Shown in pieces: positions 29,885 to 36,833 of a stretch of 41,005 bases of DNA (positions are counted from its first letter, which is position 1; each line of letters starts with the position of its first letter). The notes below the pieces were generated by a model. The model was not told the origin of the DNA and did no database searches. It worked only from the letters and a program-made list of their open reading frames with translations. The DNA lies in the NCBI GenBank assembly GCA_021826685.1, contig JAKAYT010000001.1:78789-119793 (forward strand), read 5' to 3'. The DNA is from Thermoplasmata archaeon. Lineage in GTDB: Archaea > Thermoplasmatota > Thermoplasmata > Lutacidiplasmatales > UBA184. A program made the position numbers and the translations under genes.

Positions 29885-29908
29885 CCGATCCCCGCTCGGC
29901 CGCCGCGT

Positions 29909-30015
29909 AGCCCCGTAGTGTAGTGGCCAATCATGCGAGACTCTGGATCTCGCGACGCAGGTTCGAACGCCGCGCGCGCTACCGTCACCGCGGACCGAAA
30001 TTCCTGCCGGGGCTA
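29909..30015 (+). tRNA. tRNA-Gln(CTG) with a T-loop intron
   Basis: Exons 29909-29967 and 30002-30015 make a 73-base tRNA. The acceptor is AGCCCCG/CGGGGCT with discriminator A, the D-arm is Gln-like with AGTGGCCAA, and the anticodon stem CGAGA/TCTCG has loop CTCTGGA (anticodon CTG). The T-stem GCAGG/CCTGC with loop TTCGAAT forms only when the 34-base insert 29968-30001 is removed. Without excision neither the T-arm nor the acceptor can close. No encoded CCA. Intron position is 59/60 in standard numbering. Confidence 0.9.
29968..30001 (+). other. tRNA-Gln intron, position 59/60, with BHB motif
   Basis: The exon-intron junctions form a bulge-helix-bulge: T-stem GCAGG/CCTGC, 4-bp central helix TTCG/CGAA (29962-29965 with 29996-29999), 3-base bulges AAC (29966-29968) and ATT (30000-30002), and intron helix CCGCG/CGCGG. 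Cutting after the second base of each bulge gives the T-loop TTCGAAT. Confidence 0.85.
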
Positions 30016-30066
30016 CTCTACGGGACAGCGAGAATTCACGATGCGGGGGTGCTCCAGCTCGGCCAA

Positions 30067-30093
30067 ACCGGACCGCGGCCGGTCCGGGGCCTT
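30067..30093 (+). other. tRNA-Leu intron 1, D-loop position 21/22, canonical BHB
   Basis: Textbook hBHBh': outer helix CTC/GAG (30058-30060 with 30095-30097), central helix GGCC/GGCC (30061-30064 with 30088-30091), bulges AAA and TTC of three bases each, and an 8-bp intron hairpin CCGGACCG/CGGTCCGG with a 4-base loop. The GAG used here later pairs with a different CTC in the mature D-stem. Confidence 0.9.
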
Positions 30094-30141
30094 CGAGGCA
30101 GGGCTTAGGACCCTGTTGCCTAGGGCATACGCCGGTTCAAA

Positions 30142-30179
30142 CGGCCCGACGGACGGCTCCCATCCCTCGAGCCGGAAAT
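30142..30179 (+). other. tRNA-Leu intron 2, T-loop position 59/60, relaxed BHB
   Basis: Outer helix GCCGG/CCGGC, central helix TTCA/GGAA (30136-30139 with 30174-30177; three pairs plus an A-G mismatch), bulges AAC and ATT, and a short GGC/GCC intron helix. The bulge sequences and cut positions equal those of the tRNA-Gln intron. Confidence 0.8.
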
Positions 30180-30211
30180 TCCGGCCCCCCGCATCCCCCC
30201 GGAGCTAGCGC

Positions 30212-31156
30212 ATGGCCGCCGCCTCCCCGGCCACTCCCCGGCCCATCGTGCTCGACCCCTCGCAACTCCAACGGCTTTCCGCAGCCGAGGTGGACCGGCT
30301 CCTCGACCAGCTGGAGTCCACGGTCCCGACCACGCGCCCGTGGGTCGATCTCGGGGACACCGGCGCGAGAGAGGCGATCCTCTTCGGGGACACGCACGGG
30401 GATTGGCGCAGTACGGTGAGCGTGGTCCGAACCTTTCTCGCCGGCGCGTCGACGGCTCTGGTCGGGTTGGGGGACTACGTCGATCGGACCCCGGCCGATT
30501 GTCCGAACGGCTCGGTCCTGAACGCACTCTACTTGCTCCAGGTCGCAGCGACGTACGCTCCTCGCGTCGTTCTAATCCGCGGCAACCACGAGACGACAAA
30601 CGCCCTGCCGGTTGCTCCCCGTAGCTTCGAGGACGAGGTCGAGTCCGCCTGGGGTCCTTCTCCGCTTCGCGCCGAACGGATTTCCCGTCTCCTGAACCGA
30701 GGCCCGATCGCCGCCACGAGCCGGTCCGGCGCGTACCTCGCGCACGCCGGCTTTCCGCGAGCCCCCTGGCCGGAGCCTTGGACGAGGGCCCTCGATCCGA
30801 CGGATCGGGCTCGCCTCGCCGAGATCGCATGGGCGGACTGCGCGGCGAGCCGCAACCGCCGCGGGGTGGCCCCCCCTTTCCATGAGTCGGATACCCTCGA
30901 CTTCCTCGCGAAGGCGGGCCTCACGCTGTTTGTTCGCGGACACGACCCAGACCTGACGCGACGCCCGATCTACGATGACCGCTGTCTCACGCTTCACACC
31001 ACGCGCACCTACCAGCGCTACGGGGGGGTGATCCTGGCTCGGCTGCCGCTCGACCGCACCGTTTCGTCGGCCGTGGATCTCGCCCTGGAGGACGTGCCGG
31101 CAGCCCCGGTGGGGAAACCGCCCGCGCGCACCAACGCACCCGGGGATCGCGCCTAA
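30212..31156 (+). CDS. PPP-family serine/threonine phosphatase (metallophosphoesterase)
   Basis: A 314-residue metallophosphoesterase with the PPP signature triad: GDTHGD (residues 59-64), GDYVDR (87-92) and RGNHE (ending at 127), plus downstream metal-binding histidines in YLAHAGFP and VRGHDPD. These are the motifs of PP1/PP2A-type and bacterial PrpE/ApaH-like enzymes. It probably dephosphorylates proteins or nucleotides using two Mn/Fe ions. The N-terminal 50 residues contain a helical region, and the last 30 are disordered. Starting 18 bases after tRNA-Leu, it may share that promoter. Its stop overlaps the convergent phoU stop by four bases. Confidence 0.9.
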   Translation: MAAASPATPRPIVLDPSQLQRLSAAEVDRLLDQLESTVPTTRPWVDLGDTGAREAILFGDTHGDWRSTVSVVRTFLAGASTALVGLGDYVDRTPADCPNGSVLNALYLLQVAATYAPRVVLIRGNHETTNALPVAPRSFEDEVESAWGPSPLRAERISRLLNRGPIAATSRSGAYLAHAGFPRAPWPEPWTRALDPTDRARLAEIAWADCAASRNRRGVAPPFHESDTLDFLAKAGLTLFVRGHDPDLTRRPIYDDRCLTLHTTRTYQRYGGVILARLPLDRTVSSAVDLALEDVPAAPVGKPPARTNAPGDRA

Positions 31157-31935
31157 GCCGATCGGTCGGGCGGCATCGACGGCGATTCGTCCTTCCCGCG
31201 GCCGCCGTTCCCGGGAGGCTGCTCAAGCACGTACGGAAGGTACGGGTGGCGGGGCAGATACTCGCTGGGCCGTTGTCCGGTGAGGCCATAGATCACCTTC
31301 TCGGCGATGCGGCAGGCGTTGTCCGCGATCCGCTCGAAGTGCCGCGCGATCAGGATCTCGTTGCTCGTGCGCTGGCCCGAGAGAGGGTCGAACAGGAGCT
31401 GGCGGACCGCAATGCGATTGGTCTCACGGTGCATCCGGTCGATCTCGTCGTCGCGGTCGAACAGCGAGCGGGCGACTTCGATCTTATCGTGCTCGAGCGC
31501 GTCGAGAACGAGAGCTACCTGAGACTCCGCGAGGATGTCCATGCTCTGTAAGTGGTCCCTCAGCTCAGGGAGATCGGATCGGAGCTCGGGGGTCGTGATC
31601 CGCGCGATGTCGAACCCGAGTCGGCCGATGCGATCCAGGTACGTCGTCGCTTTCAGGAGGCCGACGGCGGTCCGCAGGTCGCCGCCCGCCGGTTTACGGA
31701 GCAGGAGGAACGAGATGGTCTCGTGCTCGATATCCGACTCGTATTGGGATAGGCGCGCATCCCGATCCAGCACGGCTTGGGCCAGCTTCAGATCGGACCG
31801 CTGGAACGCGGTCCACCCATCGTGGACCATCGCCAATGCCCAGTGTCCCATCTCGACGGCATCGGACTTGAGCCGGGCGATCTCTCGGTCGTATCCTCGC
31901 GAGGCGTCGCTGCGGGCCGGGGGCGTTCCGCTCAT
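31153..31935 (-). CDS. phoU: Phosphate-specific transport regulator PhoU
   Basis: A 260-residue all-helical protein with two PhoU repeats; PhoU restrains Pst transport and mediates phosphate signalling. The first repeat ends in TTYLDRIGRLGFDIARI and the second in LIARHFERIADNACRIAEKVIYGLTG, the classic metal-binding E/DxxxD helices. The C-terminal 35 residues are Pro/Gly-rich and disordered. It is the last gene of the pst operon; its ATG overlaps pstB by four bases. It differs from the PhoU-like protein at the operon's head, which has an extra N-terminal domain. Confidence 0.93.
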   Translation of the reverse strand: MSGTPPARSDASRGYDREIARLKSDAVEMGHWALAMVHDGWTAFQRSDLKLAQAVLDRDARLSQYESDIEHETISFLLLRKPAGGDLRTAVGLLKATTYLDRIGRLGFDIARITTPELRSDLPELRDHLQSMDILAESQVALVLDALEHDKIEVARSLFDRDDEIDRMHRETNRIAVRQLLFDPLSGQRTSNEILIARHFERIADNACRIAEKVIYGLTGQRPSEYLPRHPYLPYVLEQPPGNGGRGKDESPSMPPDRSA

Positions 31936-32705
31936 CCAAATCTCCCGGTGATGTACTCCTCGGTGAGTTTCTGAGTGGGTCGCTCGAACAGCACTTCGGT
32001 GGGAGCGACTTCCACGAGGCGGCCCTGGTAGAAGTATGCGGTCCGGTCGGAAACGCGGGCCGCCTGGGCAATGCTATGGGTCACGATGACGATGGCGATT
32101 TCACGCTGGAGCTCCTCTACGGTCTCCTCGACCCGTTGCGTCGAAATCGGGTCGAGGCTACCGGTGGGTTCGTCCATCAGCAGGACGCGAGGCTTGACCG
32201 CGAGCGCGCGCGCGATGCATAGGCGCTGCTGCTGCCCCCCCGATAGTTCGAACGCCGGGCGATCGAGGTTTCCCTGAAGTTCCTTGAGCAGCCCCGCCCG
32301 TTCTAAGGAGTGGCCAACGATTCGATCGAACTCGCTCGGGTCGGTACCGTTGAGGCGCAGACCGAACACGACGTTGTTGTAGATGGACATGGGAAACACG
32401 GCCGGCCGCTGGAACACCATCCCGATGCGTTGGCGCAGGAACACGGGGTTCACGCGCGGATCGTGGATGTCCTGCCCCTGATAGTGGATAGCTCCTTCAA
32501 CGCGCAGGCCCGGGGTCGTCTCGACCATTCGGTTGAGCGTGCGTATGAAGGTGGTCTTGCCGGAACCCGAGGGCCCGATGACCGACGTCACCTGACGGTC
32601 GGGCACGTCCAGCGTAACGTCGTCCAGAATGGTGCGCTCCGGCGTACTCACCCTCAAGTTCCGCACTTCGATGATCGGGGGCCCGACCGGCGCCGGGTCC
32701 GTCAC
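31932..32705 (-). CDS. pstB: Phosphate ABC transporter ATP-binding protein PstB
   Basis: Energises phosphate import. At 257 residues it has Walker A GPSGSGKTTFIRTLNRM (the TLNRM extension is PstB-specific), Q-loop VFQRPAVFPMSIYNNV, signature LSGGQQQRLCIARAL, Walker B VLLMDEPTGSLDPIST and H-loop VTHSIAQAARVSDRTAYFY. The EYITGRFG C-terminus is also family-typical. ATGA-type overlaps with pstA upstream and phoU downstream indicate tight coupling. Confidence 0.96.
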   Translation of the reverse strand: MTDPAPVGPPIIEVRNLRVSTPERTILDDVTLDVPDRQVTSVIGPSGSGKTTFIRTLNRMVETTPGLRVEGAIHYQGQDIHDPRVNPVFLRQRIGMVFQRPAVFPMSIYNNVVFGLRLNGTDPSEFDRIVGHSLERAGLLKELQGNLDRPAFELSGGQQQRLCIARALAVKPRVLLMDEPTGSLDPISTQRVEETVEELQREIAIVIVTHSIAQAARVSDRTAYFYQGRLVEVAPTEVLFERPTQKLTEEYITGRFG

Positions 32706-33601
32706 TGGAACAGCCCCCGCAGGCGGCGCCGGTAGCGGTCCGTGATGACCTGAATGGCGATGTTGACCGTCAGCGAGATCACGATCAGCAGGAAGGCGGC
32801 CTGGAACGCCAGCGTCAGGAACGATCCCTCGGTGCTGGGGAAGTCGTAGAAGTTCCAGATCGCCCCGGTTAGGTAACTGGTCGGCTGGAGGAGACCGGTA
32901 ACCGTAGAGGAACTCCAGCCGGCCGTGTAAACGAGGGGAGCCGTCTCGCCCAGACCGATGGCCATGGCCAGGAAAACGCCGGAGAGCATCGTGGGCAGCG
33001 CGATCGGCAACGCCACCCGCACCAAGTACTGGGACCGCCGCGCTCCGAGCGCCAGCGTCGCCTCGCGTTGGGCCCGGGGAACGGAGGCGAAGCCGATGTC
33101 GGTGGTCCGATAGACGAACGGAACCATGAACACTCCGAGCGCGACCCCTCCGGCGAGCGAGTTGAACCCCCAGTGGGTATAGAGCACGAGAGCGTAGTAG
33201 CCAAAGTACCCGATCACGATGGCCGGAACCCCGGCTAGCACGTTACCGATGACCCGGGCCGAGCGAGCGACCGCCGGGGGCGCGTACTCCGCCGTGTACA
33301 TCCCCGATAGGACCCCGATCCCCACCGCAAATGCGGTAGCGATTCCGATGAGAAACAGCGTCCCGATGATCATCGCGTGAAGGCCTCCACCCAGGCCCAC
33401 CTGATCTTCGGTGAACGTGCCCCAGGTAAAGGCCGGGACCGCCCGCGCGGAGATCCAGTAGACCATGTCGAGGAGGGGGAAGAGAACGGCCGCGAAAGCG
33501 AGGAGGAGGAGCCAGCGTACTGCCCGATCGAGCGCGAGTCGGCGGCGCACGTGCCCCGTCGGATTCAGCAGCGAGTGGTCCTCATCGTGACCAACGACCA
33601 T
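32702..33601 (-). CDS. pstA: Phosphate ABC transporter permease PstA
   Basis: One of the two channel subunits of the Pst importer: 299 residues, six predicted helices, with the permease loop VPRAQREATLALGARRSQYLV (EAA motif) and the PstA-like SGMYTAEYAP and GLGETAPLVYTAG. The cytoplasmic N-terminus is polar. It starts five bases after the pstC stop, so it is co-transcribed. Confidence 0.95.
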   Translation of the reverse strand: MVVGHDEDHSLLNPTGHVRRRLALDRAVRWLLLLAFAAVLFPLLDMVYWISARAVPAFTWGTFTEDQVGLGGGLHAMIIGTLFLIGIATAFAVGIGVLSGMYTAEYAPPAVARSARVIGNVLAGVPAIVIGYFGYYALVLYTHWGFNSLAGGVALGVFMVPFVYRTTDIGFASVPRAQREATLALGARRSQYLVRVALPIALPTMLSGVFLAMAIGLGETAPLVYTAGWSSSTVTGLLQPTSYLTGAIWNFYDFPSTEGSFLTLAFQAAFLLIVISLTVNIAIQVITDRYRRRLRGLFQ

Positions 33602-33606
33602 GGGGC

Positions 33607-34617
33607 TCAGATCCCTCCCGTGGCGGCTGCGATCATGTCGGAGTGGGTCGCTCGCTGCCCCACGACGTTCACGACCACCGCGATGGCGAGGAGGACCAGG
33701 GCGTACTCGACGAGCGCCTGGAGAAGCGACGGATAGGTGAACGCGCTATCGAGCTGATAGAAGATGAAGGAGGCGATCGTGGTGGACCCCCCGTAGAAGG
33801 TCGAGGGGATTTGCACCGACGCCCCGATGACCATCGCGACCGCGACCGCCTCTCCGATGGCTCGGCCGAACCCTAGGAACAAAGCGCCCCAGAGCCCGCC
33901 GCGGGCCACGCTAAAACGGACTCGACGAGTCACCTCCCACTGGGTGGCGCCGAGAGCTAGTCCCGCCTCGACCAGGTCCTTCGGGACGTTGCGGAGCGAC
34001 TCCCGCATGATGGCCGTAGTCAGTGGGATCACCATGATGGTCAGGATGAAGACGGCCAGGAGAAGTCCCGTCCCACCCGCGGTGTCCGCCCGGGTGCCGC
34101 CGAACCCTGGGATGAACCCGATGACATTCTGGAGCGTGGGCTCGAGGGTGGACCCGAAGTACGGCGCGAGGATGACGTAGCCCCAGATGCCGTAGACCAC
34201 GCTCGGGATTCCCGCGAGCAGGTTGGTGAGGATCGTCAGCGGGCGGCTCGCGATCGGAGGGAGATAGACGGTCAGGGATATCGCGATGGCCAGGCTCAGG
34301 GCGCCCGCAAGGATCAGGGCCATGATGGCGGTGATCGCGGTGCCGACGGCAAAGATCCCGACCCCGAACGACCCCGAGTCGGTCAATGGGTCGAAGAGAT
34401 AGTTGAGGCTCCAAAACGACCCACCAAAGTTCCTCAGCTCCGAAGCATACAGGAGCACGATCACGATCGCGGCAACGAGGACGAGCGGAAGCAGAGCGAC
34501 AGGGCTCCCCAACCATGCGCGCCAACCGCTGCCGCGCGGAGGGGGAAGAGCGGGGGAGGGCGTAGCGGCCATGCCCTCCCCGCCCGGAACAGGTTCGTTT
34601 CCGATGGTCGGGTCCAA
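33607..34617 (-). CDS. pstC: Phosphate ABC transporter permease PstC
   Basis: The partner channel subunit: 336 residues, about six helices after a Pro/Gly-rich cytoplasmic N-terminus. Family features include GIPSVVYGIWGYVILAPYF, the EAA loop VPKDLVEAGLALGATQWEVT and GFGRAIGEAVAVAMVIG. It starts 13 bases after the pstS stop. The first ~35 residues are variable and a downstream Met (at about 34572) could also serve as start. Confidence 0.95.
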   Translation of the reverse strand: MDPTIGNEPVPGGEGMAATPSPALPPPRGSGWRAWLGSPVALLPLVLVAAIVIVLLYASELRNFGGSFWSLNYLFDPLTDSGSFGVGIFAVGTAITAIMALILAGALSLAIAISLTVYLPPIASRPLTILTNLLAGIPSVVYGIWGYVILAPYFGSTLEPTLQNVIGFIPGFGGTRADTAGGTGLLLAVFILTIMVIPLTTAIMRESLRNVPKDLVEAGLALGATQWEVTRRVRFSVARGGLWGALFLGFGRAIGEAVAVAMVIGASVQIPSTFYGGSTTIASFIFYQLDSAFTYPSLLQALVEYALVLLAIAVVVNVVGQRATHSDMIAAATGGI

Positions 34618-34630
34618 AGATCGAGACCCC

Positions 34631-35866
34631 CTAGGAGCTCACGCTCACCGCACCGAGGGCCTGGACATCGTAGCCCACTACGGTCGGGGTCAGCGGTAGG
34701 AAGTTCACCTCGGCCGCGTAGGATGCCCCGAACGTCATGGCCCACTCCAGGAAGTTGACGACCCAGGTTTGTTTGCTGGGATTCGCGGGGTGCGTCGAGA
34801 TTAGGATGTACTCGAGGTTGGTGTCGGGGTAGGGCGTCGGGTACTGGGCGGTCGGCAGGGTTCCACCCCCGCCGAGCTTGAGGTCGGTGGCCCCCGGGAC
34901 TCCCCCGAGAATGAGGCTGATTGCCACGCTGGGGGGTTGGAGGTTCTTCAGAGCCAGGTTGGCGTCCTCGCTGATGTTCTGAGCCGAGGGCAAGATGTAG
35001 TTCGCCGGATTGGTCCCGTTGAGGATGGCCGCCTCGTCACCGAGCGCCGCGTACTGCAGGCTCGAGTCTGCTTGGATCTCCGACAGGTAGCTGATGCCGA
35101 TGTAGGCGAGGCCGTACGGGGTCGACTCTAGCCCGGAAACCATTCCGGCGTTGCCCTGGTAGCCCTTCTGGTCGGCCAACCACGAGTACGTGGTTCCGTA
35201 GCCGCCGGTCCAGCCCGACCAGGACATGTACATCATGCTGGTCCACATGAACGTGTCCCCGCTTCCGTCGGAGCGGTGGAGGGGCACGATCGTCTGGTCC
35301 GGGAGAGCGACGCCGGGGTTCGCCGCCTGGATCAACGGGTCGTTCCACTTCGTGATCTTCTCCGAGTAGATCATCGCCAGGACGGTCCCGTTGAGGTTTA
35401 GGTGGACCGTGACCCCCGGGATGTTGTAGACCGCCAGTTGGGCCGAAATCGCGATAGGTACGTTGATCAGGCTGTAGTTGGCCGCGAGACTCGGGAGCAG
35501 ATACGCATCCGTTCCACCCATGTCGACCGTGCCGGCCTCGGCGGAGCTGATCCCGGTGCCGCTACCGGTTCCCTGCGGGGAGATCTGGATGTTCGGATAG
35601 AGGGCCGTAAACTTGGGGCCAAGTATGTTCATGTAGGGAAAGATCAACGTGGATCCCGTTTCCAATAGGGTGTACTTCGTCGCCCCCGAGGAGCCGCCGT
35701 GGCTACTGCCGAGGAGGTAGCCACCTCCCAGCCCGGCGCCGAGCAGGATCACCGCGACCGCGATGGTCACGCCCAGGCCGATCCTACGACTCCCTCGATG
35801 GCGCAACGGTGCCCCTTGCATAATACCGTCATTCGTCGTGGTCGCGCTCCCTGAACCCTCACTCAT
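34631..35866 (-). CDS. pstS: Membrane-anchored phosphate-binding protein PstS
   Basis: Extracytoplasmic phosphate receptor of the Pst importer. From ATG 35866 it has 411 residues: a basic cytoplasmic lead, one membrane anchor at about residues 27-50 (GVTIAVAVILLGAGLGGGYLL), then a Gly/Ser linker and the binding domain. Phosphate-contact motifs are ETGSTLIFP, GTGSGTGISSAEAG, VDMGGTDAYL and HRSDGSGDTF. There is no lipobox Cys, so it is held by the uncleaved anchor, common in archaea. The ATG lies inside the end of the upstream regulator gene (8-base overlap); the longer open frame is rejected for that reason. Confidence 0.94.
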   Translation of the reverse strand: MSEGSGSATTTNDGIMQGAPLRHRGSRRIGLGVTIAVAVILLGAGLGGGYLLGSSHGGSSGATKYTLLETGSTLIFPYMNILGPKFTALYPNIQISPQGTGSGTGISSAEAGTVDMGGTDAYLLPSLAANYSLINVPIAISAQLAVYNIPGVTVHLNLNGTVLAMIYSEKITKWNDPLIQAANPGVALPDQTIVPLHRSDGSGDTFMWTSMMYMSWSGWTGGYGTTYSWLADQKGYQGNAGMVSGLESTPYGLAYIGISYLSEIQADSSLQYAALGDEAAILNGTNPANYILPSAQNISEDANLALKNLQPPSVAISLILGGVPGATDLKLGGGGTLPTAQYPTPYPDTNLEYILISTHPANPSKQTWVVNFLEWAMTFGASYAAEVNFLPLTPTVVGYDVQALGAVSVSS

Positions 35867-36833
35867 GGCTTTCGTTGCCTCCTGTATCGTCCTCGCTGGG
35901 AGGACCGTGCAATGAAGGGCGCGCAGGTTGCGCGGAGTCGAGAGCGATCTCGGCAAGGTCCATGCCATAGGCCACGATGCGATCGAGAGAGTGCAATGCC
36001 CAGCCCAGCGAGACCACCGCCAAGGGGGGCGGAGGGTTGACGGATCGCGCTGCGATTAAGCGGTCTACCAGTGCTCGCCCCGTCTCACGCAGAGCGACCC
36101 CGAGATCCAGCGCGGCGTTGGCGCTGCCGACTCGAGGATCGACCAGCAGGACCAGCGCACCGTCGACGTAGTCCGAGGCCTGGTGATGGAATTCGGTCAG
36201 GAGGCGGCGCTCCGCTTCGGCGGGTTCGGTCTCTATCCAGCGGGCGCCGTGGATCGCGATGAGCACCGCATGGTCCCCGATCCGCTCGAGAGCCCGTGAC
36301 GCTTCGAGCCATCGGATCGGGTTGACCCTTTCGCGAAGACCAGATTCTCGAGGGTCCCGCCAAGCCCGAGTGACCCTCCGCTGCACCTCCCAGGCAAGAG
36401 CGTCAACGAGGTTGTCGCGCTCGTCCCAGTCTTCTTCACGGGCGCTCGAAGCGTTCCCGAACCCGGCATCCCGCAGGAGATCCAGCACGCATTCGCCCAG
36501 ACGGAAGGTGAGTTGGGACAGACGGGGCGGGTTCTGGGGGTCGAGACCATAGAGCACGAGGTCCCCGCGTTCATCATCGAGCCGGGCCCGGGCTCCGAAC
36601 CGCTCCCGGAAAGACGAGACCACGTCCCGGGTGCTGCTTCGGATCCCTCCCTCTTGGTGAACGACGATCCTCGGGGTGGCCGAGACGTACGCTGCGACCA
36701 ACTCCCGGAAGACATGTTCTGCGGGCGCGTCCGACTCCAGCTGGATCAGCCGGGGAGAAACCGACCGCCTACGGGGCAGAGTGTGATCCCGAGCTCCCCC
36801 CGAGACTCGGCCCGTTCCTTGCGCTGCCATCAT
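35859..36833 (-). CDS. PhoU-like phosphate regulator lacking the AbrB DNA-binding domain
   Basis: A 324-residue protein heading the pst operon. Residues ~30-85 (APAEHVFRELVAAYVSAT, STRDVVSSFRERFGA) match the linker domain of archaeal PhoU-family regulators. The remainder resembles PhoU repeats, with ASRALERIGDHAVLIAIHG and HSLDRIVAYGMDLAEIA as the metal-binding helices. Archaeal homologues usually start with a SpoVT/AbrB swapped-hairpin domain; here only ~28 basic residues (including TLPRRRSVSPR) precede the linker. Upstream DNA is promoter, not coding. It probably senses or relays phosphate status for pstSCAB; direct DNA binding is uncertain. Leaderless start at ATG 36833 (or 36830). Confidence 0.75.
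   Translation of the reverse strand: MMAAQGTGRVSGGARDHTLPRRRSVSPRLIQLESDAPAEHVFRELVAAYVSATPRIVVHQEGGIRSSTRDVVSSFRERFGARARLDDERGDLVLYGLDPQNPPRLSQLTFRLGECVLDLLRDAGFGNASSAREEDWDERDNLVDALAWEVQRRVTRAWRDPRESGLRERVNPIRWLEASRALERIGDHAVLIAIHGARWIETEPAEAERRLLTEFHHQASDYVDGALVLLVDPRVGSANAALDLGVALRETGRALVDRLIAARSVNPPPPLAVVSLGWALHSLDRIVAYGMDLAEIALDSAQPARPSLHGPPSEDDTGGNESHE

Follow-up and report, generated by a model that had tools for sequence, protein, structure and literature searches.

A tRNA-Leu gene split by D-loop and T-loop introns, and a genome-wide set of introns mostly in the same loops, in an uncultured Thermoplasmata archaeon

An uncultured soil and mine-drainage archaeon carries a tRNA-Leu gene that is split by two introns at unusual sites. 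The gene, tRNA-Leu(UAG), occupies positions 30043..30193 on the forward strand of the window (the whole stretch of 41,005 nucleotides analyzed here). We hold with high confidence that it is the genome's functional tRNA-Leu(UAG), the introns of which would be cut by the splicing endonuclease EndA, the exons of which would be joined by the ligase RtcB, and the interruptions of which would belong to an old intron set. Taken singly, the introns belong to a known kind; what is new is the setting, that is, the class, an enzyme of predicted alpha'2 type, and two nearly fixed sites.

Assignment of the gene draws on its type II fold, its relatives, and its copy number. It comprises three exons and two introns, all on the forward strand, as are the tRNA-Gln and metallophosphoesterase genes described below, and it reads as a tRNA only when both intervening segments are taken out: removal of 30067-30093 (27 nt) and 30142-30179 (38 nt) leaves an 86-nt type II tRNA-Leu. 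Exon 1 (30043..30066), placed by sequence and alignment, holds the 5' strand of the acceptor stem and the 5' part of the D arm up to position 21; exon 2 (30094..30141) holds the 3' part of the D arm, the anticodon arm, the variable arm, and the 5' strand of the T stem with UUCAAA; and exon 3 (30180..30193) holds U60, the 3' strands of the T and acceptor stems, and A73. The anticodon UAG (30106..30108) lies in the loop CUUAGGA on a 5-bp stem, CAGGG/CCCTG. All stems of the spliced form can pair (7 bp in the acceptor, 3 bp in the D stem, and 5 bp in the anticodon and T stems, together with the variable arm), and a 3-bp D stem is normal in leucine tRNAs. The predicted fold has an energy of -44.4 kcal/mol (z -2.9), with the D arm mispaired in the isolated minimum-energy structure. 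Read from the sequence, the coordinates, intron lengths, splice points, and complete type II product are those of the original prediction, and its expectation that standard scanners would miss the gene was borne out by both ARAGORN and Rfam at the gathering threshold. The only Rfam matches in the window are two tRNAs; a group I intron was rejected for lack of a match to the group I RNA family, and segments of 27 to 38 nt are also far too short for one.

Intron 1 (27 nt, 30067..30093) interrupts the D loop at 21/22 and was identified by its hBHBh' fold, its central helix in relatives, and covariation. Its bulge-helix-bulge (BHB) motif spans 30058..30097, with an outer helix (30058-30060 with 30095-30097), a central helix (30061-30064 with 30088-30091), bulges at 30065-30067 and 30092-30094, and an intron hairpin (30068-30075 with 30080-30087). 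Folding of the region to minimum energy gives this hBHBh' arrangement (CUC with GAG, bulge AA/A, a 4-bp helix of GGCC with GGCC, an 8-bp hairpin, and bulge UU/C, slashes marking the predicted cuts), at -23.8 kcal/mol (z = -2.6); it is exactly the perfect canonical BHB, with its GGCC helix and 8-bp hairpin, that had been proposed for this intron. The geometry of a 3-nt bulge, a 4-bp helix, and a 3-nt bulge is matched perfectly, and when the intron was randomly reordered, such a BHB with 8 bp or more arose in 10 of 200,000 trials. The 4-bp central helix is paired in all 27 relatives, where it changes from G-C to G-U only, and both partners of the hairpin change repeatedly. The covariation score of the intron was 0.348 versus 0.123 for shuffled data, a value reached by none of the 500 shuffles and by no slid register.

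Intron 2 (38 nt, 30142..30179) lies in the T loop at 59/60. Its site is kept in the 27 relatives, its sequence diverges, and its hairpin covaries (0.232 versus 0.125 shuffled, again higher than every one of the 500 shuffles and all slid registers). The BHB (30131..30185) uses the T stem as its outer helix (30131-30135 with 30181-30185) and has a central helix of UUC with GAA or GGA (30136-30138 with 30175-30177) followed by an A30139.G30174 mismatch, with bulges at 30140-30142 and 30178-30180 (AA/N and A(U or C)/U). An A57.G mismatch takes the place of the fourth pair in 20 of 20 equal-length introns. Because the central helix consists of 3 bp plus this mismatch, the BHB of intron 2 is relaxed, not perfect, and the mismatched fourth pair therefore leaves the exact cut certain only to about 1 nt. 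With a cut at 59/60, the spliced tRNA-Leu has the usual U60 and its T loop of 7 nt is intact.

Standard scanners do not recognize the locus and the assembly is incomplete, as might be expected of a pseudogene in decay, or of a remnant that has taken up random insertions, with CUA codons read by another tRNA. Conservation of the gene speaks against such decay. The exons total exactly 86 nt in 27 of 27 same-genus genomes, with a mean identity of 98.3%; the introns, at 57% and 62% identity among these relatives, diverge with compensatory changes in their hairpins, covarying as described above; and the locus order of tRNA-Gln, tRNA-Leu, and metallophosphoesterase is kept throughout the 27. Leu(UAG) was single copy in all 12 genomes tested, so that this anticodon arm, always the same with at most one mismatch, is the sole one of its kind in each; an extra match to the Leu anticodon arm in genome G029 reads as a CAG anticodon. 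In the archaeon's own genome (a 1.39-Mb assembly in 60 contigs, 90% complete), the tRNA-model matches down to E = 10 include no intact Leu(UAG) copy, and thus a count of other tRNA-Leu(TAG) genes, which the original prediction had suggested, found no second one. At this completeness and number of contigs, a small chance is left that an intact copy is hidden. A search for the Leu(UAG) pattern in outgroups returned chance matches only. Given 86-nt exons that are 98% identical and a single-copy Leu(UAG), we therefore consider pseudogene status very unlikely. As a separate observation, the near-universal U33 of the anticodon loop is replaced by C in the Leu(UAG) gene of genome G040, which is either real or an assembly error.

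The tRNA-Leu(UAG) gene adjoins a tRNA-Gln(CUG) gene (29909..30015) that lies 27 nt upstream, and the intron of this neighbor had been overlooked in the first reading of the sequence. The intron (34 nt, 29968..30001) occupies the same T-loop site, 59/60, as intron 2 of tRNA-Leu, and its BHB is canonical and fully paired (UUCG with CGAA, bulges AA/C and AU/U). The spliced form is complete and the gene is conserved in relatives, and ARAGORN mis-bounds it as a decoy cloverleaf at 29908-29983. The tRNA-Leu would be transcribed as a precursor, probably together with this tRNA-Gln. Downstream, a metallophosphoesterase gene (Metallophos, 30212..31156) marks the locus by its synteny across the genus. 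It is followed at 31153-36833 by genes for PhoU and a solute-binding/ABC transporter, probably a phosphate uptake cluster.

Interrupted genes extend well beyond this locus. tRNA genes were collected with Rfam and with a covariance model covering tRNA positions 1 to 59, and were read by eye and by script. Of 35 tRNA genes identified in this genome, 16 (about 45%) are interrupted, and Rfam at its cutoff recovers 24 of the 35. Twelve introns are in the T loop (59/60), in Gln(CUG), Leu(UAG), Lys(UUU), Asn, Arg(UCU), Arg(UCG), Glu(CUC), Ala(GGC), Ser(GGA), Gly(UCC), Asp, and His; four are in the D loop, in Leu(UAG), Lys(UUU), initiator Met, and Arg(GCG); and two are in the anticodon loop, in Tyr and Leu(UAA). 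Every tRNA with a T-loop intron has exactly 14 nt after A59 in its spliced form. The D-loop introns include those of initiator tRNA-Met (G000:C32:10991-11096, where G000 is this genome), which ARAGORN mis-assigns as tRNA-Sec when introns are allowed, and of tRNA-Arg(GCG) (G000:C22:56936-57028), and tRNA-Lys(UUU) (G000:C14:30441 onward) has both a D-loop and a T-loop intron. Since tRNA-Gln and many other tRNAs of the genome share the T-loop kind of intron, the non-canonical introns are a trait of the lineage, not of one odd gene.

Relatives show the same distribution. In two good same-genus assemblies (G018 and G029), T-loop introns interrupt the same tRNAs, as far as seen, and additionally Ser(GCU) and Ser(CGA); their D-loop introns are the same ones. 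Within this GC-rich genus the T-loop intron pattern gave two to nine matches in most genomes, with a control near 0. Matches in outgroups were parsed one by one, since AT-rich outgroups are noisy and several matches were false, and T-loop introns were found in five other families of Thermoplasmata (f3, f4, f9, f14, and f17), where the D or anticodon loop usually holds a second intron. In families f1, f3, and f9, Lys(UUU) is interrupted in both the D loop and the T loop. In the outgroup genome G099 (G099:C1:4095100-4095540), the Lys(UUU) gene apparently has three introns, one each in the D, anticodon, and T loops.

How this set arose bears on the interpretation. A recent gain by transposition, with one intron spreading to many tRNAs as proposed for the Thermoproteales, would account for the single insertion site and the similar junction bases common to many tRNAs. 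However, introns of different tRNAs in this genome resemble one another hardly more than shuffled sequence does, their mean similarity being close to that baseline, and the same tRNAs carry introns across the genus, with the Lys(UUU) pair of introns recurring in three families. We thus regard recent transposition as unlikely, and favor an old D-loop and T-loop intron set that has been inherited mainly vertically, extends over at least a third of all tRNA genes in Lutacidiplasmatales, and occurs in other Thermoplasmata families.

The T-loop introns differ in how well their central helices pair. In a tabulated, non-random sample of 47, all four pairs form in 26, and the other 21 contain a single mismatch, in most cases the conserved A57.G. 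Within the genus, intron base -6 is C opposite G57 in 26 of 27 cases; in all 11 tabulated outgroup introns, G57 is paired with C(-6) and the 4-bp helix is perfect, the pattern that retrieved them having fixed positions other than 57 and -6. Opposite A57, base -6 in the genus is mostly G, not U (17/20), giving a conserved A.G mismatch.

The candidate enzyme for removal of these introns is the product of one EndA gene of 354 aa with two fused repeats, which give two PF01974 and two PF02778 matches. The genome has no second PF01974 gene or separate beta subunit. The catalytic triad of the C-terminal repeat (Y285, H300, and K331) is invariant in 36 sequences. No CSL or ASL insertion, of the kind present in crenarchaeal and ARMAN enzymes, precedes the LSLIE segment, where the alignment is free of gaps against M. 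jannaschii EndA (1A79) and among relatives; the loop position was taken from the start points of the A. pernix and ARMAN-2 alignments. An AlphaFold model of a 97% identical orthologue (mean pLDDT 92) has as its best matches the M. kandleri fusion and the A. fulgidus alpha'2 EndA. By these sequence and model comparisons, the protein is classed as an alpha'2-type endonuclease without CSL or ASL loops, and the two-repeat architecture occurs in nearly all relatives in the class that have a match. Among the named relatives identified through EndA are Candidatus Lutacidiplasma silvani AcS3-62, UBA184, and bins of mine-drainage type, of which YP1.bin82 is the nearest at 97%. The window is thereby assigned to Lutacidiplasmatales, in agreement with the impression of a Thermoplasmata-like window. 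A lineage-specific EndA loop was also considered as an explanation of broad specificity; this idea was dropped because what look like insertions in comparison with A. fulgidus are shared with M. jannaschii or with Thermoplasmata generally.

In the pathway that we favor, each tRNA-Leu intron would fold into a BHB beside an intact D or T stem, an alpha'2 EndA homodimer would cut at 30066/30067, 30093/30094, 30141/30142, and 30179/30180 (the last two corresponding to the expected cut at 59/60), and RtcB, of which the genome has one, would ligate the exons into the 86-nt tRNA-Leu. For introns with the full 4-bp helix, such as tRNA-Leu intron 1 and the tRNA-Gln intron, a strict alpha'2 enzyme should suffice and the location alone would be unusual; for A57-type introns, such as tRNA-Leu intron 2, EndA would have to accept a relaxed helix. 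This second case is the point against EndA, as alpha'2 enzymes are described as limited to canonical BHBs (PMC12397907, PMC4090602) and as missing the loop on which relaxed BHBs depend (PMC12397907), yet intron 2 and the other A57-type introns are mismatched next to the bulge. The reported strictness could be reconciled with the mismatch if EndA took canonical BHBs only and the T-loop intron were removed with a further endonuclease subunit, undetected so far and of relaxed specificity. Against this, the genome has a single PF01974 gene, nearly all relatives with a match have the same two-repeat gene, and the mismatch amounts to one A.G at the helix end that is itself conserved; we judge this alternative quite improbable. 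With EndA as the cutting enzyme, it is a serious, if not the favored, possibility that a Thermoplasmata alpha'2 EndA without CSL or ASL took on relaxed A57.G T-loop introns through core residues alone, and the rule that architecture or added loops determine intron repertoire would therefore fail in Thermoplasmata.

Reviews cite the scarcity of tRNA introns in euryarchaea with alpha4 or alpha2 enzymes, and their restriction to 37/38, in support of the view that the type of enzyme dictates the intron repertoire. A Thermoplasmata order that combines a predicted alpha'2 enzyme with mostly D-loop and T-loop introns breaks the correlation between enzyme and introns and offers a natural test of it. 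In addition, the tRNA sets of such genomes are undercounted by common scanners. Integrases commonly recombine in the 3' half of tRNA genes, and the T-loop site sits in this half; therefore, this lineage lends itself to examining the proposal that introns protect tRNA genes against mobile elements.

According to reviews of known systems, fewer than 10% of tRNAs carry introns in euryarchaea with an alpha4 or alpha2 enzyme, one per gene and only at 37/38 (PMC4090602). There are exceptions, among them M. thermautotrophicus, M. kandleri, and Korarchaeum, each with multiple introns on record (PMC4033280; see also PMC3218864). The description of Lutacidiplasmatales (TMEG) used tRNAscan-SE and did not mention introns. 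We found no report of such tRNA introns in Thermoplasmata in the open-licence literature, which is not proof of absence. The Thermoproteales are alike in having BHB introns at 20/21, 59/60, and other sites, several per gene and in a large share of tRNA genes (Sugahara 2008; PMC4090602, PMC4033280). In contrast to the present genome, their sites vary widely whereas nearly all are at two sites here, their endonuclease is of (alpha-beta)2 type and bears a CSL loop instead of being alpha'2-type, and their introns are similar between tRNAs, unlike those described here. The original prediction's view that multiple non-anticodon introns are known mainly from this group is somewhat out of date, as abundant multi-intron tRNAs were reported from Asgard archaea in 2024 (PMC11291895). 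The Asgard Atabeyarchaeia and Freyarchaeia are likewise uncultured, with many non-canonical or multiple introns that tRNAscan-SE partly misses, but they are an unrelated lineage in which 92 to 95% of genes are interrupted, versus about 45% of identified genes here (PMC11291895). Closest on the enzyme side are the alpha'2 EndA proteins of A. fulgidus and T. acidophilum (PDB 2GJW and 2OHC), single two-repeat proteins with the same catalytic triad and fold as predicted for this EndA (TM 0.76-0.79 between the model and the A. fulgidus enzyme). The A. fulgidus EndA is described as acting on canonical BHBs only, and few introns, in the anticodon loop, are ascribed to euryarchaea with such enzymes, in contrast to the repertoire found here.
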